DNA from: Clostridiales bacterium
GTDB taxonomy: Bacteria > Bacillota > Clostridia > Lachnospirales > Lachnospiraceae
Reading direction: 5' to 3'
Assembly: GCA_012837865.1 (NCBI GenBank)
Contig: DUQJ01000086.1
Location: forward strand, 1 to 51,405
Length of the DNA stretch: 51,405 nucleotides
Positions 4,870 through 48,126 of this stretch are shown here, one piece after another. Under the pieces are notes generated by a model. That model made no database searches. It was not told the origin of the DNA and saw only the letters and a list, made by a program, of their open reading frames with translations. The translations under genes were made by a program, and so were the position numbers. Numbering within the stretch: the stretch's first letter is position 1; every line of letters begins with the position of its first letter.

Positions 4870-6687
4870 ATGAAAGGAATAACAAAATTGTTTACTAAAA
4901 AATGTCCACTTTGTAAAAAAATATTTAATACAAATAGGGAGAAACAAATATTTTGCAAAACACCTCATGAGATAATTTGCTTTGGATGCAAGAAAAAATT
5001 TATGTTAAAAAAACCAAAAAAAGATCAATACTTATATACTTGTGGAGATTACGAATGCAGATCAATTCTCACAAAACATGTCAACATGAAAAAGTATGGT
5101 GTAGAAAACACTACTCAACTTAAAGAAGTACAAGAAAGAATGAAAAAAACCACATTTGAAAGATATGGGGTAGAACATGCATTTCAATCTGAAGAAGTTA
5201 AAAATAAAATAAACAAAACAAATTTAAAAAGATATGGAACAAAAAATCCAAGATGGCACAATGAAGAATCTAGAAAAAAGGCTGAACAAACAAATTTAGA
5301 AAGATATGGCCATATAAATCCTTTTGGAGGAAAAGAAATAAAAGAAAAGATTGTAAATATAAACATGAATAAATATAGTGTTCCTTGGACAACTCAGGCT
5401 GAAGAAGTCAAAGCAAAAATGAAACAATCTTATATTGAAAATTTTGGTGTTGATAATCCAGCTAAATCGAAAGAAGTACAGATAAAAATGAAGAAGACTA
5501 CACTTAAAAGATATGGATCAGAACATTACATGAATTCTGAAAAAGGACAAGAAGAATTTCAACAAGCTATCTTTGATAAATATGGAGTATATAACAGTTC
5601 TCATATTGGTATAAAAAATTATGATGATTATATTAATCTTGAAAAGTTTTTATTAAAAACCGATAAATCTATAACAGAAATAGCTGAATACTTTAATCTA
5701 CCTAGAAGAAGGATTAGAAAAATAATTATTGATTTAGGTTTACAAGATCACTTTGAAGATCTATATGTTAATTCAATAAAAGAAGAAAACTTTGAAAACT
5801 TCTTAACCAAAAATGAAAATTTAAAAGAAATTAAATATATTAGAAATGATAGAACAGTTTTAAAAGGTAAAGAAATAGATTTCTATTTTCCAGAACATAA
5901 TCTTGGTATTGAAATATCCCCCACATATACCCATAATTCAAAAGTTGGTTGGGGAGGAAAAGGCAATGGATTATCTTCAACATACCATTTAAATAAATTC
6001 ATTGATTGTGAAAATAAAGGTGTAGAATTATTAACAATATTTGATTGGCATGATTGGAACAAGATTTTAGAAATGATTGAAAATAAATTACAAGGTTCGA
6101 ACAAAAGAGTTTATGCTAGAAAAACGCAATATTCTGAAGTTAATTATATTTACAAAGATCTTTTTAATAAGCTTTCAGAATGGCATATTTTGAGTTTACC
6201 TAGCAACTTCAAAAGAAAGTCTGATGTTAGTATATTGTCTTATCAAAATACAATTGTTGGGATTGCACTTTGGGGTGATATTAATAATAATACAATAGAA
6301 TTAAAAAGATTAGTGTTTAAACCTGGAGTAAGTGTGCCAGGAGGAGCTTCTAAGTTGATTAAAAATTATATTAAAGATAAAAATCTTCAAGGAGTTTCTA
6401 CGTTTAGTGATTGTGATTTAGGAACTGGCTCAGTTTATAGAACTATAGGATTTGAATTAGTTGAGGAATCTAAACCAGTTTTGAATTATTATAATATCGA
6501 GCATGATAAACATATCAAACATTTTTCTTTGATTAGACAGGGTGCTGATAGACTGCTTAAAAATTTTCCTAATTACAATCATGTAGGGATTGGCGATAAT
6601 TTACCAAGTAATAAAGAAATAGTCGAAAGCTATGGATTCCTACCTGTTTATGATTGCGGATACAGAAAATGGAAATTAAATCTTTAA
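4870..6687 (+). CDS. Free-standing EDxHD/VSR-like homing endonuclease with N-terminal Zn-finger and tandem ~30 aa 'KxRYGVExxxQSEEVKxKM' repeats
   Basis: CPLCKK...C..C motifs; repeated xxRYGxx units; HTH ITEIAEYFNLPRRRIRK; catalytic-like KEIDFYFPEHNLGIEISPTYTHN...YHLNKFIDCENKGVELLTIFDWHDW; C-terminal GGASKLIKNYI...YRTIGFEL typical of I-Bth0305I-like proteins. Confidence 0.8.
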   Translation: MKGITKLFTKKCPLCKKIFNTNREKQIFCKTPHEIICFGCKKKFMLKKPKKDQYLYTCGDYECRSILTKHVNMKKYGVENTTQLKEVQERMKKTTFERYGVEHAFQSEEVKNKINKTNLKRYGTKNPRWHNEESRKKAEQTNLERYGHINPFGGKEIKEKIVNINMNKYSVPWTTQAEEVKAKMKQSYIENFGVDNPAKSKEVQIKMKKTTLKRYGSEHYMNSEKGQEEFQQAIFDKYGVYNSSHIGIKNYDDYINLEKFLLKTDKSITEIAEYFNLPRRRIRKIIIDLGLQDHFEDLYVNSIKEENFENFLTKNENLKEIKYIRNDRTVLKGKEIDFYFPEHNLGIEISPTYTHNSKVGWGGKGNGLSSTYHLNKFIDCENKGVELLTIFDWHDWNKILEMIENKLQGSNKRVYARKTQYSEVNYIYKDLFNKLSEWHILSLPSNFKRKSDVSILSYQNTIVGIALWGDINNNTIELKRLVFKPGVSVPGGASKLIKNYIKDKNLQGVSTFSDCDLGTGSVYRTIGFELVEESKPVLNYYNIEHDKHIKHFSLIRQGADRLLKNFPNYNHVGIGDNLPSNKEIVESYGFLPVYDCGYRKWKLNL

Positions 6688-6704: not shown

Positions 6705-7346
6705 GTGAAAAGTAATTCAGTAATATCCATTGATGACTTTAATAATTTAGATGAAGATTGGTTTACGATAGATGACATTGAGACAACTGAACCAAAAGAT
6801 GAACTATATTGCATATCTGTGGATTCACCTGACAAGCAATTTTTAATAGGTGAACTAGGGGTACCTACTCACAATACAGATGAAGCAAAAGAGGCTGATG
6901 AATTAAAAGGCGAATCAGTTATGATTATAGGTTCCATTGCTCGCTTAGGCCGGGCTTCAGGTGTACACATCGTAATTGCCACGCAAAGACCAGATGCAAA
7001 ATTAATTCCCGGTGAAGTCCGAGACAACTTAGCAGTACGCATAGGTTGTGGTAGATTAAAGCCATCTGCCTCACTTATGATGTTTGATTCAAATATTGGG
7101 CAAAGAATACACGCCAATCCCAAAGGCGGAATGTATGTTCAAGTGCATGGTGCTGGCAACATGGGACAAGGATTCTTCGCGCCAAACTCATGGCTAGACA
7201 AATATTATAATGAACATGGTTTATTTGAGAATGCCAAGCCTGCTGAGGTTGTAAAAGATTTAGATGACACCATGAAGAAAGCAGACAAAGAATTTATAGA
7301 ATATTGGGACGAAGATATGGATGCATTACATGAAGTTGCTGATTAA
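6705..7346 (+). CDS. Split-intein C-fragment + C-terminal extein of the FtsK/SpoIIIE-like translocase
   Basis: GTG start after AAGGAGG; YCISVDSPDKQFLIGELGVPTHN|T intein C-terminus; then GSIARLGRASGVHIVIATQRPDAKLIPGEVRDNLAVRIGCGR (FtsK-like ATQRP). Confidence 0.85.
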   Translation: MKSNSVISIDDFNNLDEDWFTIDDIETTEPKDELYCISVDSPDKQFLIGELGVPTHNTDEAKEADELKGESVMIIGSIARLGRASGVHIVIATQRPDAKLIPGEVRDNLAVRIGCGRLKPSASLMMFDSNIGQRIHANPKGGMYVQVHGAGNMGQGFFAPNSWLDKYYNEHGLFENAKPAEVVKDLDDTMKKADKEFIEYWDEDMDALHEVAD

Positions 7347-20571: not shown

Positions 20572-21474
20572 ATGAATGGTTCAGAGTTATATTATTTAGT
20601 TTTGTCAATAGGATTCTCAATATCTATAGTAGCTCTAATTGCTGTAATTGTTTCACCAAAAACAAATAGTAATCAATTTTATTTATCTAATATTGAACAC
20701 TTAAATCCCAGCATGGTTAAAGTTGTGAATTTAATTGGAGGCGACTTGTTGTCTTTAATTCCTAAAAAAATACAAAAACAAAGCATTGCCAGTAAGGAGG
20801 TCAATGATGTATTCAAAGCTTCAGGAAACCCTTGGGGTGTTACTAAATTAGAATTTCTAGCATTAAGAGTAGCTTATGGGTTTATTGGGGGAATTATAGG
20901 AATTTTATTTTCAATATTTTTAAAACTAAGTCTTATGTTGGCAGCCATAATAACAATATTGTTAATTTATCTAGGCTGGAATAAGCCTATATCTGAATAT
21001 AGAAAGATAGCTGATGCTAAGGCAAAAGACTTTAGAAGGCATTTTGCGGAAATGTTAGATTACTTAACTATGATTATGGGTGATGGAACATATACATTTG
21101 CTAATGCAATTGAAGTGGTGTTACCTTATTTACCTGAAAGTGCTGTAAAGTTTGAATTTACTAAAGTTACTGATTCAATCAACGCGGGAATGACGGTGGA
21201 TGGGGCCCTTAATGACTTGTCTAGTAGATTGCCTTCGCCTGCTCTAGAAGCTTTTATAAATGCTGTTAATAACGCCAATACACTTAACACTCCATTAGAT
21301 GGACTTATGCGTGTTCAGGCAAAAAAATCCAGAGAGGATTTAGTAAATGAATTAGAATTAATTATACAAGGTTTACCAACAAAGACTATGTTGACTATTG
21401 CACCAGCATCTATACTTTCAATGTTATTAATATTTATGGTGCCAGTTGTGGTCGCATTAATATCAACACTTTAA
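20572..21474 (+). CDS. TadB/TadC-like type II/IV secretion F-domain membrane protein
   Basis: KDFRRHFAEMLDYLTMIMGDGTYTFANAIEVV...PLDGLMRVQAKKSREDLVNELELIIQGLPTKT with TM pairs. Confidence 0.75.
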   Translation: MNGSELYYLVLSIGFSISIVALIAVIVSPKTNSNQFYLSNIEHLNPSMVKVVNLIGGDLLSLIPKKIQKQSIASKEVNDVFKASGNPWGVTKLEFLALRVAYGFIGGIIGILFSIFLKLSLMLAAIITILLIYLGWNKPISEYRKIADAKAKDFRRHFAEMLDYLTMIMGDGTYTFANAIEVVLPYLPESAVKFEFTKVTDSINAGMTVDGALNDLSSRLPSPALEAFINAVNNANTLNTPLDGLMRVQAKKSREDLVNELELIIQGLPTKTMLTIAPASILSMLLIFMVPVVVALISTL

Positions 21475-21494
21475 AATATATAAGGAGTGATTAA

Positions 21495-23054
21495 ATGAGC
21501 AACACCGGATTACCATCCTTGTCTAATCTTGACTCAACAAAACAGACAGAAAAGGATTTAAATACACAAGAATTAACTAGGAAGGCTTATAGACAATTTG
21601 AATTAGATCAAAAAAATAGAAGTGGAATTCATAGAAGAACTGACTCTCCTGTAATAACGTTCGGGATGCTTGAAATAGCTCCTAAATGCTTTTTTGAAGA
21701 ATTGAAACCTTTAATTAAGGAAGTTAGTGCTGAAATTATTAATTCTATATCAGCCAGTGAGGCTACAATTCATATATCTAATCATAAAAAAGATCCTACA
21801 AATGTAGCTTTAAAAGAAACAATACTTTATATTGTAATGTCTGAGTTTAATAAAATAGACAGGACAAACAATGATGTAAAAATTCTAAGACCAATTGACA
21901 AAGATATCTTGTTAGCTGCTGTTATAAATGAAGTTATAGGACTTGGACCAATTGAACCATTGTGGGTAGAAAAAAAAGTCACAGAAATAATTTGCAACGG
22001 TCCAAAAGATATTCAAGTAGAAATTGATGGAAAAATACGCAAAGTTGTCTCAGTCAGCTTCAGAGATAAAGAACATTTAAAGGCTTTAATTGATAAACTG
22101 TATTCATCAATTAATAAACAATTGAGTCCACTTATTCCTAGAGAACGCGGTAGACTTCATGACAATTCTCGTATGTATGCAGTGCATGATGTTATAGCGC
22201 CACAAGGACCCAACTTTAACATAAGAAAGCACTCTGAAGATTATTGGGCACCAATAGATATAGTTAATAAAGGTACTGCTTCTCCTGAACTTATGGAAGA
22301 CATAGGCAACCTAATACATGCGGGCGTATCATTCTTAGTAATTGGAGGTACAGGAACTGGTAAAACTACATTACTAAATGCATTAACTGGTTTTTTCCCA
22401 GAAAATCATCGCATAGTTACTATTGAAGAGAACTTAGAAATGAAACCACATCCTAAGAAGCTTTTAGCTGCTCCAATGGAATGTTTGCCAGCAAAAGCTG
22501 GAGAAGGCAGAGAATTCGGAGTTAATGTAAGAGATCTTGTGCGCTCTTCACTTCAAATGAGACCAGATATTATACTGGTTGGTGAAGTTTCTGACGGAGC
22601 AGCTTATGACTTATGTCAAGCTCTTAACACAGGTCATGGGGGCGGGTCTACAGTCCATGCTAATGACTCTCAAGACTCCTTAAATAGGCTTAGGTCTTTA
22701 GTTTCTCAAGAAGAATTCGTTAGAGGTCCTGCTGTATTAGACTTAATTGGTTCAGCATTTGATATAATTATAGTGGTTGATAGAATGTCAGATGGGACTA
22801 GAAAAATTACAGAGGTGGCTGAATTAGGGAGAACTCCAATCCTGGCAGAAAATAAAGAATTGACCTTAGAGATTATTCCATTGTGGGATTTTAAATATGA
22901 AAAAGCAAATGTAAATGGTGAAATGAAACTAAAAGCTACTTGGAAAAAGATAAAAGAATTGTCTGAATACAGACAAAAAAAACATAGACTAAATTTAGTA
23001 AAAAGATTATCTTGGGATGAGTTATTAGAAATTTCAAACACAGATTCTGAATAA
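21495..23054 (+). CDS. TadA/CpaF-type secretion ATPase
   Basis: ISFLVIGGTGTGKTTLLNAL, IVTIEENLEMKPHP, RSSLQMRPDIILVGEVSDGAAYDLCQALNTGHGGGSTVHANDS. Confidence 0.9.
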   Translation: MSNTGLPSLSNLDSTKQTEKDLNTQELTRKAYRQFELDQKNRSGIHRRTDSPVITFGMLEIAPKCFFEELKPLIKEVSAEIINSISASEATIHISNHKKDPTNVALKETILYIVMSEFNKIDRTNNDVKILRPIDKDILLAAVINEVIGLGPIEPLWVEKKVTEIICNGPKDIQVEIDGKIRKVVSVSFRDKEHLKALIDKLYSSINKQLSPLIPRERGRLHDNSRMYAVHDVIAPQGPNFNIRKHSEDYWAPIDIVNKGTASPELMEDIGNLIHAGVSFLVIGGTGTGKTTLLNALTGFFPENHRIVTIEENLEMKPHPKKLLAAPMECLPAKAGEGREFGVNVRDLVRSSLQMRPDIILVGEVSDGAAYDLCQALNTGHGGGSTVHANDSQDSLNRLRSLVSQEEFVRGPAVLDLIGSAFDIIIVVDRMSDGTRKITEVAELGRTPILAENKELTLEIIPLWDFKYEKANVNGEMKLKATWKKIKELSEYRQKKHRLNLVKRLSWDELLEISNTDSE

Positions 23055-23077
23055 ATAAAAAAGGAGGTTAAGACAAT

Positions 23078-24022
23078 ATGTTAAATTATGGACATATACC
23101 ACATGTTGCTACAGCAACCTTTATATTAATAATGTCAATATTAGTTATATATCTTATTAGAATAACGCTTAAAGAAAAAAGAGAAGAAGAAAATTTTGAG
23201 AAACAATTAAAGTTTGCAGTTAATCCAGGATTTGAGGAAAAGGCAAAAACAAGTTTTATTAATGATAAACTTAAAATACTACCAGAAAATATAATTAAAT
23301 CTGGTATTGTTGGTGAGAAATACAAGGTTGAAGATTTGCAAAGAAGATTAATTCTCATAGGAGCCTTATTGTTCACCATGACTACATTTTTTACACGTAA
23401 TCTAGTTGCCGGTTTTGTTCCTGTAATATTTGGATATATAGGATTGACCGTGTTAGCTATGTTTAAAATTAGCAAAAATAAAAATCTCATGGATGACCAA
23501 ATTCCAGCCTTTGTTAGCACATTTAAGGCTAATATTCAGGCTAATCAGCATTCTCAAAATGCAATGATTAGAGCTATTGACAACACTGCATCTCCATTAT
23601 ATGATGAGCTTGCATATGCAAAGGCAATCATGGAGGCTGGAGATTTCAGACCTGGAATTATAGCATTAAGACAAAGCACTGACAATGAAACATTGAGACA
23701 GATGGCATCCTGTATTGAATTAGCTTCATCTTCTGGTTCTAACATTGAAGCACAAATTGAAATTATAGAAGATATAATAGCTGACAAACAAGCTATTGAA
23801 CGCAAGAAGAAACTAGGCATTAATGAAAATAAACCATTATTTATAGTAGCAGGATTATTCATACCCATATCTTTTATTGGCTCATATGTATTAAGTGAAA
23901 TGCACAGAGACTTCTGGTTTAAATCACTTTTATCTTGGGTAGTGCTGATTGGTATAATGATTAGTATGATTATATCATCATATGCAACTTGGAAAGTAAT
24001 TCAAAAGGTAGATATAGGATAA
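23078..24022 (+). CDS. TadB/TadC-like membrane protein
   Basis: DDQIPAFVSTFKANIQANQHSQNAMIRAIDNTASPLYDELAYAKA...LRQMASCIELASSSGSNI + C-terminal TM segments. Confidence 0.7.
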   Translation: MLNYGHIPHVATATFILIMSILVIYLIRITLKEKREEENFEKQLKFAVNPGFEEKAKTSFINDKLKILPENIIKSGIVGEKYKVEDLQRRLILIGALLFTMTTFFTRNLVAGFVPVIFGYIGLTVLAMFKISKNKNLMDDQIPAFVSTFKANIQANQHSQNAMIRAIDNTASPLYDELAYAKAIMEAGDFRPGIIALRQSTDNETLRQMASCIELASSSGSNIEAQIEIIEDIIADKQAIERKKKLGINENKPLFIVAGLFIPISFIGSYVLSEMHRDFWFKSLLSWVVLIGIMISMIISSYATWKVIQKVDIG

Positions 24023-24034
24023 GAGGTGAAATAA

Positions 24035-24472
24035 ATGAAAGAAGTAAGAGTTACAAATATGACATCTTTATTTAGCAAAGAAATGCTTATATATTCATTA
24101 TTTGATCTTAGATTACAGTCACCATTAAGGGTTGTAGGATTAATTTATTTTATATTATTATTCTTTATTGTTGGTATACCCATCTTTATGATATCTTGGC
24201 CACCAAATGTATACACAATGTTTTTGGCAATGGGAATCCCTTTTGGTGGTGCCTATTTAATGAGTAAACCAATTTGGAATGGAAAATCTTTCCTTTCTTT
24301 TTCTAAAACTCATGTGAGATATTTCACTAGACCCAAGATTTTATATGATTGGAAAAATAGATCTAATAACACTAATTATATTGTTAAAAGCCAAATACTT
24401 GTATCAAGACATGATGATTATAACGAATTGTATAGATTAACTAAAGAAGAGGAGGCGTTAAAATATGGCTAA
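24035..24472 (+). CDS. TcpE-like conjugal transfer membrane protein
   Basis: 145 aa, two TM helices then ...FLSFSKTHVRYFTRPKILYDWKN; overlaps the VirB4-like gene. Confidence 0.55.
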   Translation: MKEVRVTNMTSLFSKEMLIYSLFDLRLQSPLRVVGLIYFILLFFIVGIPIFMISWPPNVYTMFLAMGIPFGGAYLMSKPIWNGKSFLSFSKTHVRYFTRPKILYDWKNRSNNTNYIVKSQILVSRHDDYNELYRLTKEEEALKYG

Positions 24473-25655
24473 AGTTTTTTCAACAAGTATGCCCATAGGC
24501 GAAACTGCAACCGGTTTGCCAACTCCTGCCTTCTTTGACCCCCATTATGCCATTAGAATTAACAAGCCTCCAGTAACTTTAATTACAGGATCTCCAGGTT
24601 CTGGCAAAACAGTAGCCGCACTACTATTAGCATCCCATTCAGCACTGTTAAATAAAACAACATTTATTCTAGACCCAAAAGGAGATTTCTTGTCATTAAA
24701 ATTACTTGAGGACGCTGGTGAAATTGAAAATGTACATGTGTGGTCAATATTTCAAAATATAGAAGAAGGCACTGTTAGAGAAAGCAATATTGGCATGTTA
24801 GATCCAACATGCTTAACGTCTGATGTAAATGAAAATGCTAGTTTAACATTAGAAACAATCAATGCACTTGTGAAGAACATGTCAGCAAATCAACGTAACG
24901 CTCTAATACCAATTATTCAAGATGTAACACACTCCCCTAACCCCTCGATGAATACTATCAGAATGATTCTATCACGCAGTAGGGACGCAGAGATTTCCAC
25001 TCTATCGCATGAGTTGGGCCTAGCATTATCTATGCCAGCTGGGAAGCTATTGGTTGCTTCGAGCAAAATAAATAATAGATTAAAATTAGATAAAGGGGTT
25101 GTGGTTGCAAGTCTAATGGGGCTTTCCATGCCAGCAAGTAGCAAACAGGAAGATAATTACTTAGAAAAAGAGAGATTGTCAGTTGCTATAATAAGATTAC
25201 TTACTCATATGGTACTTGATGTAATGAAGAAAGTTCCCAAAACAATAAGTAAAACATTATTCATCGATGAAGCTTGGGCAGTATTTAATAACGCTTCCGG
25301 TAGAGACCTCATTGATGAAGTTTCATTATTAGGACGTAGCTTAAATATGGCAGTGGTGTTAGCAACTCAATCCCCATCACACGTTATGGGCAAAGAGGGA
25401 GGAGCTAACCTAGATACTACAATTTCAACAAGGTTCGCCTTTAGAAATACTAGTGACATTGATAATGAAATAACTACTAAAGCAATGTCTTTGCCAAAAG
25501 ATGCTGGATATGAAGGAATATTCAAAAATTTAGCTAACGGACAATGCCTAATGAAAGATAGTCAGGAGCAGTTTGCCTTCATTGATGTTATGTTGCCAGA
25601 TGGCTGGCTTGACATATTTGATACAACACCTTCACCTGAAGAGCATGATAATTAA
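24465..25655 (+). CDS. VirB4/TraC/TcpF-type conjugation ATPase (motor domain)
   Basis: LITGSPGSGKTVAALLLASHSALLNKTTFILDPKGDFLSL...TLFIDEAWAVFNN...DEVSLLGRSLNMAVVLATQSPSHV. Confidence 0.8.
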   Translation: MAKVFSTSMPIGETATGLPTPAFFDPHYAIRINKPPVTLITGSPGSGKTVAALLLASHSALLNKTTFILDPKGDFLSLKLLEDAGEIENVHVWSIFQNIEEGTVRESNIGMLDPTCLTSDVNENASLTLETINALVKNMSANQRNALIPIIQDVTHSPNPSMNTIRMILSRSRDAEISTLSHELGLALSMPAGKLLVASSKINNRLKLDKGVVVASLMGLSMPASSKQEDNYLEKERLSVAIIRLLTHMVLDVMKKVPKTISKTLFIDEAWAVFNNASGRDLIDEVSLLGRSLNMAVVLATQSPSHVMGKEGGANLDTTISTRFAFRNTSDIDNEITTKAMSLPKDAGYEGIFKNLANGQCLMKDSQEQFAFIDVMLPDGWLDIFDTTPSPEEHDN

Positions 25656-25735
25656 ACCAATGTTAATGATATTTACATTTAATTATAGCATTTATTAAAA
25701 AATTATTTGAATATAAGGGAGGAAGAAATACAGCC

Positions 25736-26761
25736 ATGAATAATAAAGACAAAAACCCAAAGAAAGATAAATTAAAAAAAATCAAAAGAACAAAGGCAAA
25801 AAGAGTCAAATTTAATCCTGTTCAAGGTAGTTCTCGTAAAAACCTAATTCTAGTGAGTTTAGCAGTAATGTTTGTGATAATATTATCTGCCACTATATTT
25901 ATGACATTAACGTCATTATTTAGCACTGAAAGCTATTATGTATTGAGTACTAATGTAAGGGCTAAACAACAAATAACCCCTGACATGGTTATGGCGAGAG
26001 AAACAGCTGCAGGTACAGGCCCAGTAAACGCCCTAAGCATGGAGCAAATTCAAAGAGGAGGAGTTTACTCGAGATATCCTATGTATGCTGGAGATGTTAT
26101 TTCACGTAGTAACGTGGGCGCATTATCTGGACAATCCTTAGGTATACCAGATGATTGGGTGGTCACAAGTTTTTCAACAGTATCTACTGACGCTGTTGGT
26201 GGAATATTAGGCAAAGGGGATTATATAGATATTCTAGGGGTTGATGAATCTGGATCAAGATATGTTTTCAACAATTTGCTTGTTCTAGAAGTTAAATTTG
26301 TTAACGAAGAATACGATGGAATTTCTGATGGTAGAACAATAGTTGGAGAAGCTATGCATTATACTGTAGGTATGCCTGCAGACAAGGCAGCTTATTTACA
26401 TTCAGCTTTGTATGATTATGAAGAAATTAAAATAATTAAGGCTCCAACTATAATCAATTACGCTGACAGAGATGTGTCTAACTTAGATGCTTCATTTAAA
26501 TATGGACCACAGGTTGGAAATATTGATTTAATACAAGGTACTGATCCCACCTTCACTGATGTAGAAAGAGATGAAGATGGAAGACCTATAGTTAACAATG
26601 TTAATTTAGAACAAATAGAAGATAATTTTGTTGAAGAGCAAATAGAAGATAAATTTGTTGAAGAACAAATAGAAGATGAAACCATTGAAGACGAAACTGC
26701 AGAAGATTTAGAAGACCAAATCATTGAATCAGAAAATGTGATGGAAAATGATGATAATTAA
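25736..26761 (+). CDS. CpaB/RcpC-like SAF-domain protein with acidic repeat tail
   Basis: Single TM then YYVLSTNVRAKQQITPDMV...YAGDVISRSNVGAL; tail EQIEDNFVEEQIEDKFVEEQIEDE. Confidence 0.75.
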   Translation: MNNKDKNPKKDKLKKIKRTKAKRVKFNPVQGSSRKNLILVSLAVMFVIILSATIFMTLTSLFSTESYYVLSTNVRAKQQITPDMVMARETAAGTGPVNALSMEQIQRGGVYSRYPMYAGDVISRSNVGALSGQSLGIPDDWVVTSFSTVSTDAVGGILGKGDYIDILGVDESGSRYVFNNLLVLEVKFVNEEYDGISDGRTIVGEAMHYTVGMPADKAAYLHSALYDYEEIKIIKAPTIINYADRDVSNLDASFKYGPQVGNIDLIQGTDPTFTDVERDEDGRPIVNNVNLEQIEDNFVEEQIEDKFVEEQIEDETIEDETAEDLEDQIIESENVMENDDN

Positions 26762-26820
26762 AAGACCAACTTTAAATAGTTAAAATAACTATATATCATA
26801 TAAAGAGGAGAGATTTATAT

Positions 26821-28257
26821 ATGAGTAACGAAAATAAAATCATATTTGTTGGTCCTGAAAATATACACAGTGCATTTGCTCAAATGGGGCAATACAATTT
26901 TCAAGAACCAATAATAAGTTTAGAAGAGTTTCAACACGAAATGAGATTAGATGAAAATAAGTCAAAAGTATCTAGAAGTTCATCAGCGATAATATTCTTT
27001 TCAAGATTATATACAGGTGCTGAAAAAGAATTCGCTAAACTTGTGGCGTTTTATGCACCATATGCTGTTGTTTCAATATTAATACCAGAACAAGACAAAG
27101 AATTAATTCCTAGAATGGAATCTTTAATTAGAGCAGCTAAAAGAGAAAATGCTAGCAATTCTGGAGGATCTTACGATGCTTTAACACCAACTTTTTTTAT
27201 AAGTTATGAAGCTCCAATGCCGGATCTTACTCAAGCTATGGCTGACTTTATAGCTGATGAAACTATTAGTCCTGATGTTAAGCCAGGAGTTATGGAAATG
27301 CTTCCAGAACATTATAAAAGCGCCTTGTCAATAGAAAACAATTTTGAAATGGCTGATGAAACCTTAGAAGAACTATATGGAAATGACGATTCAATTGTAA
27401 TTCCTAAAGATGATGAAGATAAAAATGGTGTAGTTATTGCAGTCACCTCATCTAAGGGTGGTTCAGGCAAATCAACAGTCAGCATGTTGCTTGCAGCCTA
27501 CTTGGCAAAAGCGAGTAAAATTTCAGAACAACAAAACTTAGAAAGAAGAAGATTAAAAGTTTGCGTGATTGACTTTGATACACGAGATGGTCAACTAGGC
27601 TTCTTAAACGGTCAAACTAGCCCTACTGTTTTTAATATAATAGGAGACTCAAATGTTGTGGGCAACGAAATACCTAGAAGTGCTATAGAAAAAGGTATTT
27701 ATTCATCATCTAATATAGAGGCTGATTTCATATTTGCACCCAGAAGAACTAGACATGCTAAGGAAATTAAACCACAATTTTACGTATCAATAATTCATGA
27801 GTTAAAAGGTATGTATGATTATATTATACTAGATACTAGTGTTAATTATCTAGATGTTCTTTTAGAAGAAGTAGCTTATCCAATGTCTGATAAAATAATA
27901 CTAGTAACAGATATGGGTATCTCTTCAATAATGGGAATGGCACGCTGGATAACTGAAACTACTTCACCTAAAGAAAAAGGTGGTAGTGGCATTGATAAAA
28001 ACAAAATAGGCATCACAGTTAATAAAGTAATGGATGGAGTAAATATGGGAGCAGACAGAATTAAAAAGACTGCTATGGGTGTTCCTATTATAGCTATGTT
28101 GCCAAATGCTCCTAAATTAATTACATTCAAAGCTAACACTAACTCACTAGATGATGTTCTCTACAAGAGACAAATAAATCAATCTTTTAAAGTTCTTGCC
28201 AACTCTATTGTGGGCGATAGTTATCAATTGGCAGACGTTCCATATAATGATGATTAA
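26821..28257 (+). CDS. CpaE/TadZ-like MinD/ParA-family ATPase
   Basis: VIAVTSSKGGSGKSTVSMLLAAYLAK...KVCVIDFDTRDGQLGFLNG...YDYIILDTSVNYLD. Confidence 0.85.
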   Translation: MSNENKIIFVGPENIHSAFAQMGQYNFQEPIISLEEFQHEMRLDENKSKVSRSSSAIIFFSRLYTGAEKEFAKLVAFYAPYAVVSILIPEQDKELIPRMESLIRAAKRENASNSGGSYDALTPTFFISYEAPMPDLTQAMADFIADETISPDVKPGVMEMLPEHYKSALSIENNFEMADETLEELYGNDDSIVIPKDDEDKNGVVIAVTSSKGGSGKSTVSMLLAAYLAKASKISEQQNLERRRLKVCVIDFDTRDGQLGFLNGQTSPTVFNIIGDSNVVGNEIPRSAIEKGIYSSSNIEADFIFAPRRTRHAKEIKPQFYVSIIHELKGMYDYIILDTSVNYLDVLLEEVAYPMSDKIILVTDMGISSIMGMARWITETTSPKEKGGSGIDKNKIGITVNKVMDGVNMGADRIKKTAMGVPIIAMLPNAPKLITFKANTNSLDDVLYKRQINQSFKVLANSIVGDSYQLADVPYNDD

Positions 28258-35195: not shown

Positions 35196-37721
35196 TTAAT
35201 TGTATTCTGTCAATTCTATAACCGGGCGCCAGCTGGCATATTTACTTTTGCTAGCCCAGGTTGCCCCTTCAATGCCTATAATTTGACCAGCAACACCACG
35301 TTTATGATCTCCCCCTCTTTGAATTGCGTCAGATGACATATGTGTCCTATATGATTCATTAACCCAAGAATACCCATATTCAATTTGTGTACCCAAGTCT
35401 TCATTTGAATACATTCCTTCAGCGCCATTACCTAAGGAATGCTTAAACAACCCTTTATCCTCTTCTCCAAGATAATAACTCAATGGCCAATTGCCTGTTA
35501 AAGCATTTTCATGTATTGGCAATAGCAATCTATTCCATTCGGAGCCTTTTGTTACCCCACTAAGGCTCCCTTCTGGAGCTGCAGATCTGCTTTTAGTTCC
35601 AAACAAAGATCTTACCGAATATTGTTTATCTTGTATTGTAATTGATGATTTTTTTGTTGCCTGAGACCATGTCACTCTACGATTAATTGGTTTTTTAGCT
35701 ACAAACAATGTGGTTATAGAATTCTCATTTTTTACCGTGAATTTCAACCAAGGCTCATTCTGATTTATATTGTAAGTAGAATTACCTGTTCTGGTTATAT
35801 TTACCAATTCCTCCCCACTAATTAATTCTGAGACCGGAACTTCTCCATAAAACGTATAAGTTCCATCACTAGCTATTGGCTCCTGTGGCCCAGGCGTTTT
35901 AAACTTTTCTTCCAGATTGCTTATGCTTTGATCTAACATTTCTAAAATGTTGGATACTTGCTCTTGAGTGGCTTTTTTATCATGAATGATATTCTCAGCC
36001 TCATTTAGAACTTCTTCAAGCTCATTCCATCCAGACTTATAATCATCTTTATTTAGTTTCTTAACTTCTTCTACCTTGTTAATCAATTCACTTTTATCTA
36101 TATATATAGTTTCTTCTTCAATCACAACATTATCAAAGCTGTTGACGAATATGTGGTCTAATAATCTCACATCAACACCATCGTTCACTGAGTAACTATC
36201 AACTTTAACGTTATTTTCTAATATGTTTCCATATTTATCAACTTTATGAAGTTGTTCTTGGTTTTTGATAATTATTGTTTTTATTGTTGCTATGCTATCA
36301 GGACCAAAGAAAATACCACCTTTGTGAGTTTCATTAAATGCAAAAGCATAATTACCAATATGGTAAACACTATTAGGAATTGTAACACCAATTAGTTGGT
36401 TGCCAGCAAAAGCGTAATCTTCAATTCTTTCAAGACCTTCTGGCATCTTGACCGTAATTAACCCTAATCCTTGGTAAGCCCCTTTGGCTATTTTTGTTAT
36501 GGGTATCTCTTCTCCATCAACAATAATTTTGTCCGGTATTGTTGCAGATGTATTGTTATTTCCATTAGATGAACCTCCAGATGAACCCCCAGATGGATTT
36601 TTAAAATTAGGTGGTGTAGGCTTAGGGTTTGCATCTAATATAGTTCCACCCACAGGTTTACCATCCTTATCTCTTTCTATTTCTACCTCGATACCCAAAT
36701 CTTTATCTGAAGGTAATTTAAATTCCGGCTTAGCTGGGGTGTCCCTATTAGGCCCATTATCATCAAATGCACTATCATCTATATCTATTTCTTCTTTCGG
36801 CTTTTGAATAACAGGCTTTTCTAATTTATTGCCTTTGAAGGCGTCTTCACCAACTTCCTCAACACTTGGTGGTATTTGTAAGTCGTCTAAGTCATTGTTC
36901 TTAAAGGCTTCATCTTCTATTGTTTTAACAGAATCTGGTATCACTACGCTTTTTAGAGGAATTTGAGCAAAGGCACCTCTTCCTATAATTCTTACGGGCC
37001 AACATCTTGCTTCAGATTCATTTGCGTTTTTAACTAAAAAAGCAGATGGAATAATCAAATGTTGGGCAGTCCCATGGTATTTCACAATAGTTCCTGTCTT
37101 GTGTTCAAATGTATAATCAGGTAAAGGTTCTACACAATTAAGATATTGTGGTTTTGAGTTATTTTTTAAAGGCTTATCGGGCTCGTAATACACCTTACCT
37201 AAATTATTTGAATAAAATATTCCTTTTAATTTTGTGCCTATTTTACTTTTATATTCTTCTGGTATTACTTTATAAGTCTTGCTAACTTCATCTAGCAAAT
37301 CATCATTGTTGTTATTATCTTCACCAGATAATGGGATAAGAGGCCCACCCATTGCAGGCATATCCATATTAAGCAGACTTGCGTCACTTGTTTTATTTTT
37401 TATATTGCTGTTAGATAAATGGCTTCTGTCAACCTTTTTTGCCACACCTCTTGTTTCATACAAATTTTCATTTGCAACAAGTTTATATAAATCTTTTTGA
37501 TTAGTATCCCAGGATACATATTCGTCAAATTTATTCATTAAACTTTCGTCCATTTTATTTTGCATTACCTTAACATCATGTTTGATTCTAGCTAATTGAG
37601 CTTTTTCAACATGTCCTTTAAATCTTGGCATTACTAAAAGCATTAGTATGCCTAATATAGCAATAACTACTAATAATTCTATAAGGGTGAAACCCTTATA
37701 AAGCTTTCTAAGTTTATTCAT
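35196..37721 (-). CDS. Type IV prepilin-like N-terminus fused to BspA-like leucine-rich repeats, FIVAR-like helical region and C-terminal surface domain
   Basis: MNKLRKLYKGFTLIELLVVIAILGILMLLVMPRF; LRR units PDSVKTIEDEAFKNN, PPSVEEVGEDAFKGN, PEGLERIEDYAFAGN, PNSVYHIGNYAFAFN; C-terminal ...ASWRPVIELTEYN. Confidence 0.88.
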   Translation of the reverse strand: MNKLRKLYKGFTLIELLVVIAILGILMLLVMPRFKGHVEKAQLARIKHDVKVMQNKMDESLMNKFDEYVSWDTNQKDLYKLVANENLYETRGVAKKVDRSHLSNSNIKNKTSDASLLNMDMPAMGGPLIPLSGEDNNNNDDLLDEVSKTYKVIPEEYKSKIGTKLKGIFYSNNLGKVYYEPDKPLKNNSKPQYLNCVEPLPDYTFEHKTGTIVKYHGTAQHLIIPSAFLVKNANESEARCWPVRIIGRGAFAQIPLKSVVIPDSVKTIEDEAFKNNDLDDLQIPPSVEEVGEDAFKGNKLEKPVIQKPKEEIDIDDSAFDDNGPNRDTPAKPEFKLPSDKDLGIEVEIERDKDGKPVGGTILDANPKPTPPNFKNPSGGSSGGSSNGNNNTSATIPDKIIVDGEEIPITKIAKGAYQGLGLITVKMPEGLERIEDYAFAGNQLIGVTIPNSVYHIGNYAFAFNETHKGGIFFGPDSIATIKTIIIKNQEQLHKVDKYGNILENNVKVDSYSVNDGVDVRLLDHIFVNSFDNVVIEEETIYIDKSELINKVEEVKKLNKDDYKSGWNELEEVLNEAENIIHDKKATQEQVSNILEMLDQSISNLEEKFKTPGPQEPIASDGTYTFYGEVPVSELISGEELVNITRTGNSTYNINQNEPWLKFTVKNENSITTLFVAKKPINRRVTWSQATKKSSITIQDKQYSVRSLFGTKSRSAAPEGSLSGVTKGSEWNRLLLPIHENALTGNWPLSYYLGEEDKGLFKHSLGNGAEGMYSNEDLGTQIEYGYSWVNESYRTHMSSDAIQRGGDHKRGVAGQIIGIEGATWASKSKYASWRPVIELTEYN

Positions 37722-41752: not shown

Positions 41753-43198
41753 TTATTCATTAATAACTTTTTTGAATAATTCCATGTCTACTACTTGTTT
41801 AACTGCCTCTGATTCCAGACATCTTCCTTGTAAGACAGCCTCAGCTAATTTGTGTTCCATTGTGCTCTTATGTTTTATTTGATAGTCTCTAATCCCTTGT
41901 ACATTTCCTTTAATAATTAACTCTTTAATTTCTTCATTAATAGTTAATATTTCCCGCACAGCAAATCTCCCATCTGCCATATCTTTTACTAACACTTGAT
42001 TACCTATTCCTCTTAATGTGTCAGCCAAAGTGCTCATAATTCTATTCTGCTCGTTGCCAGAAAATAGATTTTGAATTCTATTAATTGTGGTAGATACTGA
42101 ATTGGTGTGCATTGTGCTTATGGCCAAGTGACCAGTTTCAGCAGCCCGCAACACTTCAGTAACCTCTTCTGTATTTCTAACTTCACCTAATAATATAACA
42201 TCAGGGTTTTGTCTCATCGCTGCCGTTAACCCTTCGTAAAAACCTCTAGTGTCATTACCGACCTCTCTCTGAACTATTAAAGAAGGGGTGTCGTCTGGAT
42301 AAATATACTCAATAGGTTTTTCAATAGTTATGACTTTTTTTCTAGTAGTCACTAATAAATTATGCACAACACTTGCTAGCGTGGTGGACTTACCAGTACC
42401 AGTTGGCCCACATAATAAAAATAATCCATTAGGACAATAAGACCAATCTACTATTTCTTGTTCTACTTTTAAATCTTTTAAACTGGGAATGTAATCATTA
42501 ATTATACGGAATACTATAAAGTATTTTCCAAATGAGCGACCTATATTCATGCGTGTTCTAGTACCTTTATAAGGTCCATATTCTACAGTATAAGCTCCAT
42601 CATATTCATAATCTTTATTAAACTCAGCTTGCTCTTGATGACTTAGTATGCCATCATGTATTAATGCATGCATAGTTTCTTCATCAGGCCTTACATATCC
42701 ATCATACTTAATTATCTCTCCATTCCTAGACATAGACACTTTTTGGTCAGCTGTTAAGTGAACATCAGAGGCTCCACTTATAACTGCTTCAGTTAATATT
42801 TGATCTAAATGAAGATAACCTATCCAGCCAGTGGTTATCCATTCATTAGCTAACATTTCAGGAGTTGATATTGGGGTAGGAGGTTCCCAATCTAATATAG
42901 CTTGAGCACGCCTTGATAACTCAACATCCTCCTCACTATCAATATCTTCATCATAATATTCATTATCAAAATCTTCTACATCTCCATCATCATATGAATC
43001 ATTAAAACTATCTTCATTTTGATTGCTAAAGTCCTCCTCATTATATTTTTTAACCTTAATTTCAGATTTAACGTTAGAAGTATTTTTGAAATTTGGCAAG
43101 GGAATTTTTGACTTCCTTGGCTTAAAGTTATCTTCCTTTAGTTCCCCTTGAATAAACTCATCAATAAATTCATCCATGATATTTGTATTTTCACTCAA
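41753..43198 (-). CDS. PilT/DotB-like secretion/retraction ATPase with acidic N-terminal extension
   Basis: LFLLCGPTGTGKSTTLASVVHNL, VITIEKPIEYIY, GLTAAMRQNPDVILLGEVRNTEEVTEVLRAAETGHLAISTMHTNSV. Confidence 0.9.
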   Translation of the reverse strand: MSENTNIMDEFIDEFIQGELKEDNFKPRKSKIPLPNFKNTSNVKSEIKVKKYNEEDFSNQNEDSFNDSYDDGDVEDFDNEYYDEDIDSEEDVELSRRAQAILDWEPPTPISTPEMLANEWITTGWIGYLHLDQILTEAVISGASDVHLTADQKVSMSRNGEIIKYDGYVRPDEETMHALIHDGILSHQEQAEFNKDYEYDGAYTVEYGPYKGTRTRMNIGRSFGKYFIVFRIINDYIPSLKDLKVEQEIVDWSYCPNGLFLLCGPTGTGKSTTLASVVHNLLVTTRKKVITIEKPIEYIYPDDTPSLIVQREVGNDTRGFYEGLTAAMRQNPDVILLGEVRNTEEVTEVLRAAETGHLAISTMHTNSVSTTINRIQNLFSGNEQNRIMSTLADTLRGIGNQVLVKDMADGRFAVREILTINEEIKELIIKGNVQGIRDYQIKHKSTMEHKLAEAVLQGRCLESEAVKQVVDMELFKKVINE

Positions 43199-45298: not shown

Positions 45299-45614
45299 AA
45301 TTAATCACCATCCCTTATCCATTATAATATCAATAACACATACTCATCGCTACAATCTGCAGAAAAGGTCAATGAGTATGTATGTGAATAATCAAAGCTG
45401 CTAGCCACTATCGTATCTCCTTAACCGGACTCCATAGAGCGTAACTTCCTATGGAGATCCTATCCGGCCAACCTTCGGCTGTCCGGCAAAGCCCTGCTCC
45501 CCCTCATTATTATCCATGAATGAATAATATTGTCCCCTATAATCTTAAGTCGCAGATTATAAGTTAATGGTGAGCCAGAAATCCAGAGCATTAAATAACC
45601 GGAATACCGGATGC

Positions 45615-45670
45615 CTAGAAAGCTAGAGAACTAGAAAGCTAGAAAGCCAGAGAGCTAGAGAACTAGAAAA
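45615..45670. repeat. Seven in-phase 8-bp tandem repeats (CTAGAAAG/CTAGAGAA)
   Basis: CTAGAAAG CTAGAGAA CTAGAAAG CTAGAAAG CCAGAGAG CTAGAGAA CTAGAAAA. Confidence 0.9.
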
Positions 45671-45916
45671 GCTTAAAACCGGCCCTCCGAAGTTCCTCTT
45701 CGGAGACTCCTGAGCTGAGCTCAGAAGTGAAAACCCGCGGCAGTCCTCATGGGCTAAAATCCGGGACGGGGCCCGGACCCCCCAGAAATCGGGGGCAAGT
45801 TTTAGCCAGAAGCAAAAGCAGAAGCGTTTAGAACCGGTGCTGTCTCTAGACTAGAGGTTAACTTGTAATTATATGGTGAGTTGATAATTGTACACTATCA
45901 CTGATGAGTAAATAAA

Positions 45917-46014
45917 ACCGGTGCTGTAGTAGTCTACACCGGTGCTGATAAGTAATGAATAAATGATGTAATGTAATTAATGAGAGAACCGGTGCTGTAG
46001 TAGTCTACACCGGT
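45917..46014. repeat. Two copies of 27-nt hairpin repeat ACCGGTGCTGTAGTAGTCTACACCGGT
   Basis: Perfect copies at 45917-45943 and 45988-46014; partial at ~45833. Confidence 0.95.
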
Positions 46015-46917
46015 GTAAGGTGATATATGTAGTATTGAATTAATGCTGAGCTAACTCCAATCCGGTGTGATGTCTAACCCTGGGCTGTAATGTGATGGTC
46101 CGGTGTGGCCTGAAGGCTGGGCCTAGCTCACGCCTGTAGGCTGAAGCTAGCTAGCTTCAAGGTGAATGTGATTGACTGCCTTAAGGCTGAAAGGCGAACG
46201 CTGGCGGGCTCGATGAGCCTGTAGGAATTGTCACGTGAGAGGATTGAAGTGTCTAGGTTAAAGTGTGATGGCACACTCCTCCGGAGTGATGCTCACGCTG
46301 GCTAGCTTAAGCTGAATCTGGGTGAAGAGCGATGATGGGCCAAGAACTAAATGACGGGAAATGGGAATGAATGAAATTGGAATATGAGTGAAGGGAAAGG
46401 AATGGGAATGAAAGGCTAGGAGCGAACTCGCCCCAGCGAGGTTCGGGGGGTAGCCTGTAATGTACATGACTTGGACTGAACCATATGGAAATGGAATGAA
46501 TGACCATCTGGACGGAATGATAGGGTCAATGTCTATGAATCAACTAAGCTAACTTAAGCCCTTAAAGTGGTCTAGGTTAACTTGTGACACGATGAGCAAT
46601 AAATCTGTAAGGCGAAAGTGTGTTATCTCAAGAGAAACAGGTTAACTAAGGCACTACAAATTCAATGAATGTGATAAAATCACAATGGCAAAAGCGAAGC
46701 AAAGCAAAAAACGAAAGCCTACTTAAGTAGACCATAAGGCGGAGAAGCAACTGCATATCAAATTGCGTTAAGGTAGCTAGCAATGATTAATTAGGGTTAA
46801 CCAATAGTGAGCTGGGTGGTCTAGAGCCAACCATGTTCTAGGGGAACTAAAGCGGGCAAGAGAGCAGATTAAGAGAATTGGGAGAGTAGAGTGAAGCGGG
46901 ACGGGACGGGGAGTGGG

Positions 46918-46945
46918 GCGGGCAGATGTCCGCTGGCTTTTTTTT
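46918..46945 (+). terminator. Rho-independent terminator
   Basis: GCGGGC-agat-GTCCGC then TGGCTTTTTTTT. Confidence 0.65.
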
Positions 46946-47175
46946 ATTTTTTCTGCTTGAAGCAATATTATAAAATATATTTGTAAGTTTATTTCAAAAA
47001 AACAATCTAACTAATCAAGAGATTAATTATATTGAGACTTAATTTTTAATTTAAATAACATTTTAAAATTATTTTTATGTAGTTAGTATAAATATATTAG
47101 ATTGCAATTTTTAAATAATTTCATGTTAAATTTATTTCGCAACATAAATAAATATAATTTATTGGTCAATATATA

Positions 47176-47214
47176 AAAAGACAGTCTTACAATGGACTGT
47201 CTTTTTATATATTA
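47176..47214. terminator. Bidirectional terminator
   Basis: AAAAAGACAGTC-ttacaatg-GACTGTCTTTTT. Confidence 0.85.
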
Positions 47215-47226
47215 CTTTAATATTTT

Positions 47227-47523
47227 TTAATAACCCCATTCAGTTAATTTATTACTTATATTTGTTTTAATAAATTTTATTCCTGCAAAATTAATATGTT
47301 TATCATTTCCTTTATATTGAGCTTCAGTGATTATTATTTCATATAGCAACTCTATCATTTGATTTCTTTCTGTCTTTAGGAATTCGTCTGCGGTCAGCCA
47401 GTCTTCTGAGCCTTCCTCAGAGTCCGTCATTTGATTTTCATAACCACCTATCATATCACTTATAACTTCCAGTATTAACTTATTGGCCTTTAGTTGGTGT
47501 GAATTTAATTTTATCTTAGACAT
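47227..47523 (-). CDS. Hypothetical protein
   Basis: RBS GGGGGG; promoter TTGACA-N17-TATAAT at 47578-47606 (minus). Confidence 0.7.
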   Translation of the reverse strand: MSKIKLNSHQLKANKLILEVISDMIGGYENQMTDSEEGSEDWLTADEFLKTERNQMIELLYEIIITEAQYKGNDKHINFAGIKFIKTNISNKLTEWGY

Positions 47524-48126
47524 TTTGTTCCCCCCATTTGTTTATGTATGTGGTATATTTATTTACCTTATGTATATATTATAACACATTTAAATGAAGC
47601 TGTCAACATTGTTTTCACTAATTATATTATTATAATTTCCAACAAGGCTTTTGATGGAGGGATTTTTATTTCAAGTTGACGGGACGGGTTATAAAGTTAG
47701 CAGTCAATTTAAAAGTGTATTCAATTATTTTTTATGGAGACAAAATGAGTTTTTAAAGTTCTCTCAAATGAAAAAATAAAGAGGTTGTTTTTATTTTAGC
47801 AGTCTTTTATAAATTTAAAATTGTCATTCAAGTTTTATCTTTAGTTGGCCAGAGTCTTCAATTTTATTTTTATTTTTGAGACCTCATTTTAGAGGTCCTC
47901 TATTTTTCAATTATTAAGGAATCTAAAGTTTACAAGACAGCCTGAACTCCATATGAGTGACTTTCTTCGGAAGAGTAATCGAATATTATTTCATAGTTTT
48001 TTAATTGGATAAGTTCTTTATTTAAATCTTTTTAATTTTAAGAATTTAATATTCATTCCTCTAATTTTTTAAATTATTAAGTTTATTTGTTAGTTAAATA
48101 AGATACAGAACAATCAACCATTTCAT

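Follow-up and report, generated by a model that had tools for sequence, protein, structure and literature searches.

MOBC relaxases are PD-(D/E)XK nucleases; the pAD1 member, TraX, carries a winged helix at its N-terminus and is reported to bind a set of five direct repeats 70-120 bp from nic (PMC12857230). Five MOBC loci were used for comparison in this study, that of the pAD1-like plasmid pTEF1 and four from same-order genomes (L060, L061, L062 and L069), and all five have inverted repeats with arms of 18-36 bp directly upstream of the MOBC gene. In pTEF1, which is typed as MOBC in PLSDB, nested perfect inverted repeats of 25 and 18 bp and 5.5 copies of a 12-bp direct repeat lie within the 0.7 kb upstream of TraX; no tandem array was found at the other four loci. 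Those four have a gene for a MobC relative followed by a VirD4-like ATPase gene, with two inverted repeats in front (arms of 18-36 and 21-32 bp), and their upstream regions are probable, uncharacterised oriT regions. From position we infer that the five comparison regions serve as oriTs of the respective elements, and four of them are somewhat GC-richer than their surroundings. The other described systems that bear on this locus are large structured RNAs. A long GC-rich intergenic region within an AT-rich genome is a known signature of non-coding RNA (PMC6429828), and the ROOL RNA of the megaplasmid pMP118 has been reported to be very abundant (PMC5643018; PMC12286853).

The window analyzed here is an entire contig (C31) of 51405 bp whose ends do not overlap, and it is one piece of a draft genome of 2.13 Mb that is 81% complete. 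Its gene set suggests that the contig comes from a conjugative plasmid or similar element. It encodes TcpE (24035), a VirB4-type ATPase (24465) and FtsK-type pieces on the plus strand (312-1094 and 6705-7346), and its other proteins include CpaF/PilT-type ATPases, T2SSF proteins, a CpaB-like protein, ParA, a topoisomerase A subunit and RecD2. The proteins tested are distant from those of known plasmids (the best VirB4 match is at ~30%), and searches with ParA, topoisomerase and VirB4 found no close relative of the element. No tRNA genes were found in the window. The FtsK/TcpA-like ATPase is broken into pieces, and by eye their ends resemble split inteins: the piece at 312-1094 has an N-end like the C-end of an intein (..LMTHN/S) and a Hint-like N-part at its C-end (PT-HINT E 0.006), and the piece at 6705-7346 begins with ..VPTHN/T and then continues as FtsK. 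Some 5.6 kb, including a homing-endonuclease-type gene (4870-6687), separate the two, a "fractured gene" layout in a conjugation ATPase. A Tad-pilus-like set (two CpaF/PilT-type ATPases, T2SSF-like proteins and a CpaB-like protein) is mixed with a Tcp-type transfer set (TcpE and the VirB4-type ATPase) at 20572-28257 and 41753-43198. An 841-aa protein (35196-37721, minus strand) combines a pilin-type N-methylation motif with BspA-type leucine-rich repeats and a FIVAR domain.

The locus occupies a gap of 1928 bp (45299-47226) between P0001 (43211-45298, minus strand) and a 98-aa ORF (47227-47523, minus strand). The original prediction described this gap as GC-elevated within an AT-rich element and as lacking plausible genes, and both descriptions hold. 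GC content is 41% over the entire gap and 46% in the core (45335-46945), compared to 32% for the whole window, and the 21 other gaps of at least 100 bp average 24.6% (sd 4.9, maximum 37%). No plausible gene was found in the gap; the ORFs there are all on the minus strand and of 62-69 aa. Plus-strand stops number 137, versus 110 in dinucleotide shuffles. The plus strand of the locus is purine-rich, with skews of +0.18/+0.15.

P0001 (695 aa) has its start 37 bp from the locus and is oriented away from it. Based on its sequence, P0001 is a diverged relative of the MOBC-type (replication-relaxation) relaxases, with an acidic N-terminal half and a C-terminal catalytic-type domain. Against the NCBIfam model NF041423 (MobC, replication-relaxation) it scored 34.5 bits (E=1.2e-8, residues 598-670), and its C-terminal part alone scored 39.8 bits (E=3.1e-10), more than the 23.6 bits of pTEF1 TraX; both P0001 and TraX fall below the curated cut-off of 200 bits. 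TraX passes the Pfam model Replic_Relax at 28.5 bits, and P0001 has no match to it. When the motif block was aligned among P0001, pTEF1 TraX and MobC proteins from same-order genomes, the PD-(D/E)XK-type motif D..ExE..K was present with D273, E292, E294, K298 and R302 invariant. Profile comparison (hhalign) agreed with this, at an E of 9e-5 and a probability of 59%. P0001 aligns with the wHTH part of these relatives, yet it has no HTH family match, and AlphaFold modeled its C-terminal part only poorly (pLDDT 34). There was no Pfam or PHROG match to P0001, and sequence searches found no homologues in viral contigs, plasmids, phages, genome contigs, or the 34 genus and 392 order genomes.

The core contains 12 perfect stems (at least 6 bp, loop of at most 12) compared to 2.3 expected, a number reached by 0 of 60 shuffles. 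The excess is strongest over 45299-45900, adjoining P0001 (8 versus 1.3 expected). By part, there are 7 stems versus 0.7 expected in 45335-45840, 4 versus 0.7 in 45840-46400, and 1 versus 1.0 in the last ~545 bp (46400-46945). All of the hairpins named in the original prediction were found, and its dense hairpins are borne out to about 46400, but not beyond. Beginning at the end next to P0001, a 14-position inverted repeat (45336-45383) in the P0001 promoter region is a candidate operator, and both of its imperfect pairs would be G.U in a minus-strand RNA only. It is followed by a nested hairpin closed by CCGG/CCGG (45425-45467), a CCGGCCAACCTTCGGCTGTCCGG hairpin (45464-45486), an AT-rich hairpin (45505-45532) and a hairpin of 8 perfect pairs, 10 on extension (45536-45563). 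Seven tandem 8-bp repeats of CTAGARAR on the plus strand (45615-45670) are a candidate relaxase binding array; the array scores 82, and the top of 300 shuffles scored 55. Beyond the array are a CTCCGAAG-ttcct-CTTCGGAG hairpin (45685-45705), a ACTCCTGAGC/GCTCAGAAGT hairpin (45706-45728) and two GC hairpins inside GGCTAAAA/TTTTAGCC arms (45752-45807). Further right are two identical plus-strand copies of a palindromic 29-bp repeat (45916-45944 and 45987-46015), the 18-nt palindrome TGAAGCTAGCTAGCTTCA (46142-46159) and the previously named CGAACTCGC/GCGAGGTTCG stem (46423-46445). A CRISPR array was considered and rejected, as only two exact repeats are present and no cas gene was found among the proteins examined. 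Short palindromes are over-represented (CCGG 16 versus 3.5 expected, TTAA 20 versus 6.7, CTAG 19 versus 8.7); CCGG pairs close several of the hairpins, and CCGG often stands in repeated CCGGTG contexts. A search of the locus for repeats yielded no inverted repeat of at least 12 bp. Pieces of 300 nt gave a mean fold z of -1.6 on the plus strand and -2.4 on the minus strand, compared to -0.5 and -0.4 for control pieces.

The predicted plus-strand end, a hairpin followed by T8, was located at 46917-46945 (stem 46917-46934, T8 46938-46945), although the stem is weak with 7 pairs, 5 of them GC. Nowhere in the 51 kb contig does GC content fall more steeply than at 46938, where this terminator-like hairpin meets its T8. 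Terminator-like sites in the 2.4 kb scanned numbered 4 versus 1.7 expected. The GC extremes of the window adjoin here, with up to 55% within the gap and 13.5% right after 46941; the flank at 46941-47140 has a GC content of 13.5-15% in 200-nt windows, the lowest of the window, and could be an unwinding element. Immediately 5' of the terminator, on the plus strand, is the sole canonical G-quadruplex motif of the window (46898-46922). Part of this motif, GACGGGACGGG, recurs ~780 bp further downstream (47678-47688), where the DNA is very AT-rich.

The best reading, offered tentatively and at somewhat less than an even chance, is that the locus serves a conjugative plasmid as a non-coding control region upstream of, and divergent from, its relaxase-like gene. 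The left ~500 bp would be a transfer origin in cis with P0001, and transcription would cross the right ~1.1 kb toward the terminator. Here 45335-45830, the part nearest P0001, is probably the origin of transfer. P0001 would use its presumed winged-helix part to bind the tandem array and its PD-(D/E)XK-type domain to nick a nearby site, with hairpins either extruded or recognized as single-stranded DNA. One strand would then be exported, in a direction that is itself presumed, through the element's TcpE/VirB4/FtsK-type machinery. The distal ~1.1 kb would probably give rise to a rightward, purine-rich RNA ending at 46945, since the T8 terminator coincides with the steepest GC drop and the plus strand is purine-rich.

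A transfer origin is favored because P0001 matches the MobC model with catalytic-type residues kept, because the contig has TcpE, VirB4-type and FtsK proteins, because the comparison MOBC loci hold inverted repeats at the same position, and because the stem excess peaks next to P0001, where the tandem array also lies. The original prediction had named an origin of replication or transfer as its alternative, and it is the transfer side that has gained ground, with a MOBC-type relaxase relative adjoining the repeats and hairpins. A scan of the whole contig for inverted repeats found no nested pair of the canonical oriT kind elsewhere, mostly terminator-like hairpins and AT-rich palindromes, and no better oriT candidate was seen. 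The reading is weakened because long nested inverted repeats are absent and the fold z is milder (-2.7/-4.7, compared to about -6 to -17 for the comparison MOBC regions), because 1.6 kb exceeds the comparison gaps, and because P0001 is below the curated cut-off and lacks a Replic_Relax match and no nic site was identifiable in the locus. The poor AlphaFold model for the C-terminal part of P0001 and the fact that the contig is only a piece of a draft genome weaken it as well. The locus may therefore work like a MOBC-type origin, but it is not classed as a standard MOBC oriT.

The original prediction favored a giant RNA in the size class of GOLLD, ROOL and OLE. A search of the locus against Rfam, with these three families included, returned no match at the gathering score and none of the three among weak matches to E=10, so the locus is none of these; a cryptic group I or II intron, an rRNA and a riboswitch were rejected because they too had no Rfam match. 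A single large structured RNA of ~1.4-1.6 kb, read rightward from a start at 45300-45550 to the 46945 terminator and unrelated in sequence to these families, is a serious rival, if somewhat less likely than the transfer origin. A long, gene-free, GC-rich gap in an AT-rich element is the recognized signature for non-coding RNA discovery (PMC6429828), the T8 terminator falls exactly at the steepest GC drop, stems are in excess, and the plus-strand skews resemble those of the plasmid ROOL (+0.14/+0.08). When the ROOL of pMP118 was put through the same procedure as a yardstick, its fold z was only -1.0 and it had no palindrome excess. Fold energy was therefore dropped as a discriminator, a modest z being compatible with such an RNA, and high hairpin or palindrome counts were not required of it. 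However, stems are not in excess over 46400-46945, promoter-like sites are at chance level and no better than in shuffles, no tRNA gene is nearby, no homologue and hence no covariation was found, and every helix wobble in the left half is of the kind that pairs on the minus strand (0 versus 9, p 0.03), with a fold z that is also lower on the minus strand. The original idea is partly supported: the GC enrichment, the terminator at the GC boundary and the purine-rich plus strand fit it, whereas the lack of an Rfam match and the conflicting strand signals do not. A ROOL search in the genus gave no match, but the controls gave none either. Homologues of the locus were found neither by blastn in phages and plasmids nor among 61 relatives, where the best match (L002) lies inside a MerR-like gene and was rejected as chance, and in IMG/VR the matches to locus patterns were confined to coding DNA of unrelated genes or simple repeats of the CTAGAAAG type.

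The strand signals conflict. The terminator, GC skew and purine content point to the plus strand, whereas the strongest helices of the left half have wobbles that pair on the minus strand only (9 to 0). The test of G.U against A.C wobbles is suggestive only (p 0.03-0.10 after composition correction), and folding without GU pairs did not decide between the strands. Palindromes acting as DNA are not expected to show a strand preference. The wobbles, together with a minus-strand fold z of -3.9 (45330-45830) or -4.3 (45330-45873) and the fact that the minus strand leads straight into P0001, could indicate that the P0001 mRNA has a structured leader in the left part, with a regulatory or copy-control role and possibly opposed by a plus-strand antisense RNA of the sort known from plasmid replication control, and that the right part is separate. 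This is decidedly improbable, as the wobble test is weak once corrected for composition, no strong minus-strand promoter adjoins, and the purine skew is on the opposite strand, to the right. The adjacency of the window's lowest-GC and highest-GC stretches, the CCGG excess with its repeated CCGGTG contexts and the name replication-relaxation carried by MobC-family proteins would suit a vegetative replication origin, with hairpins and CCGG-repeat sites as initiator sites and 46941-47140 as the unwinding element. DnaA boxes are not enriched, though, no recognized Rep protein was found among the contig proteins examined, and AT-rich gaps are common on the contig, which leaves this the remotest of the readings. 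The transfer origin, giant RNA, leader and replication origin partly overlap. It is also conceivable, but unlikely, that the locus makes one structured RNA of ~1.4-1.6 kb beside a transfer origin and perhaps overlapping it, as an RNA machine in conjugation or plasmid establishment.

Compared to known RNAs, the locus is like the pMP118 ROOL (RF03087) in being a long non-coding gap that is GC-richer than its AT-rich plasmid and has a purine-leaning strand. Unlike the locus, the pMP118 ROOL is ~540 nt long, matches the ROOL covariance model and has no excess of short palindromes; the locus is ~3 times longer. GOLLD and OLE have only the suggested size class in common with it, as a covariance-model match and tRNA genes are absent here. 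If true, an RNA of ~1.4-1.6 kb would be longer than the GOLLD, ROOL and OLE RNAs compared, and if the distal part or the whole locus is RNA it would rank with the largest structured RNAs of bacteria and lie beside a relaxase gene. To our knowledge, there is no known case of a giant structured RNA in that position. Unlike pTEF1, the locus has 8-bp repeats and many small hairpins in place of a long inverted repeat, and it covers 1.6 kb whereas the comparison gaps cover 0.3-0.7 kb. If it is a transfer origin, it would represent an oriT-type region that lacks the customary long inverted repeat, and the little-studied MOBC relaxase systems would extend to a divergent plasmid group. The layout directly upstream of the relaxase gene is shared with all five comparison loci. 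As with the oriT-type region of pTEF1, the locus is gene-free, GC-elevated and hairpin-bearing, lies beside a MOBC-type relaxase gene and has a tandem direct-repeat array, and in both elements the relaxase is accompanied by a TcpE protein.
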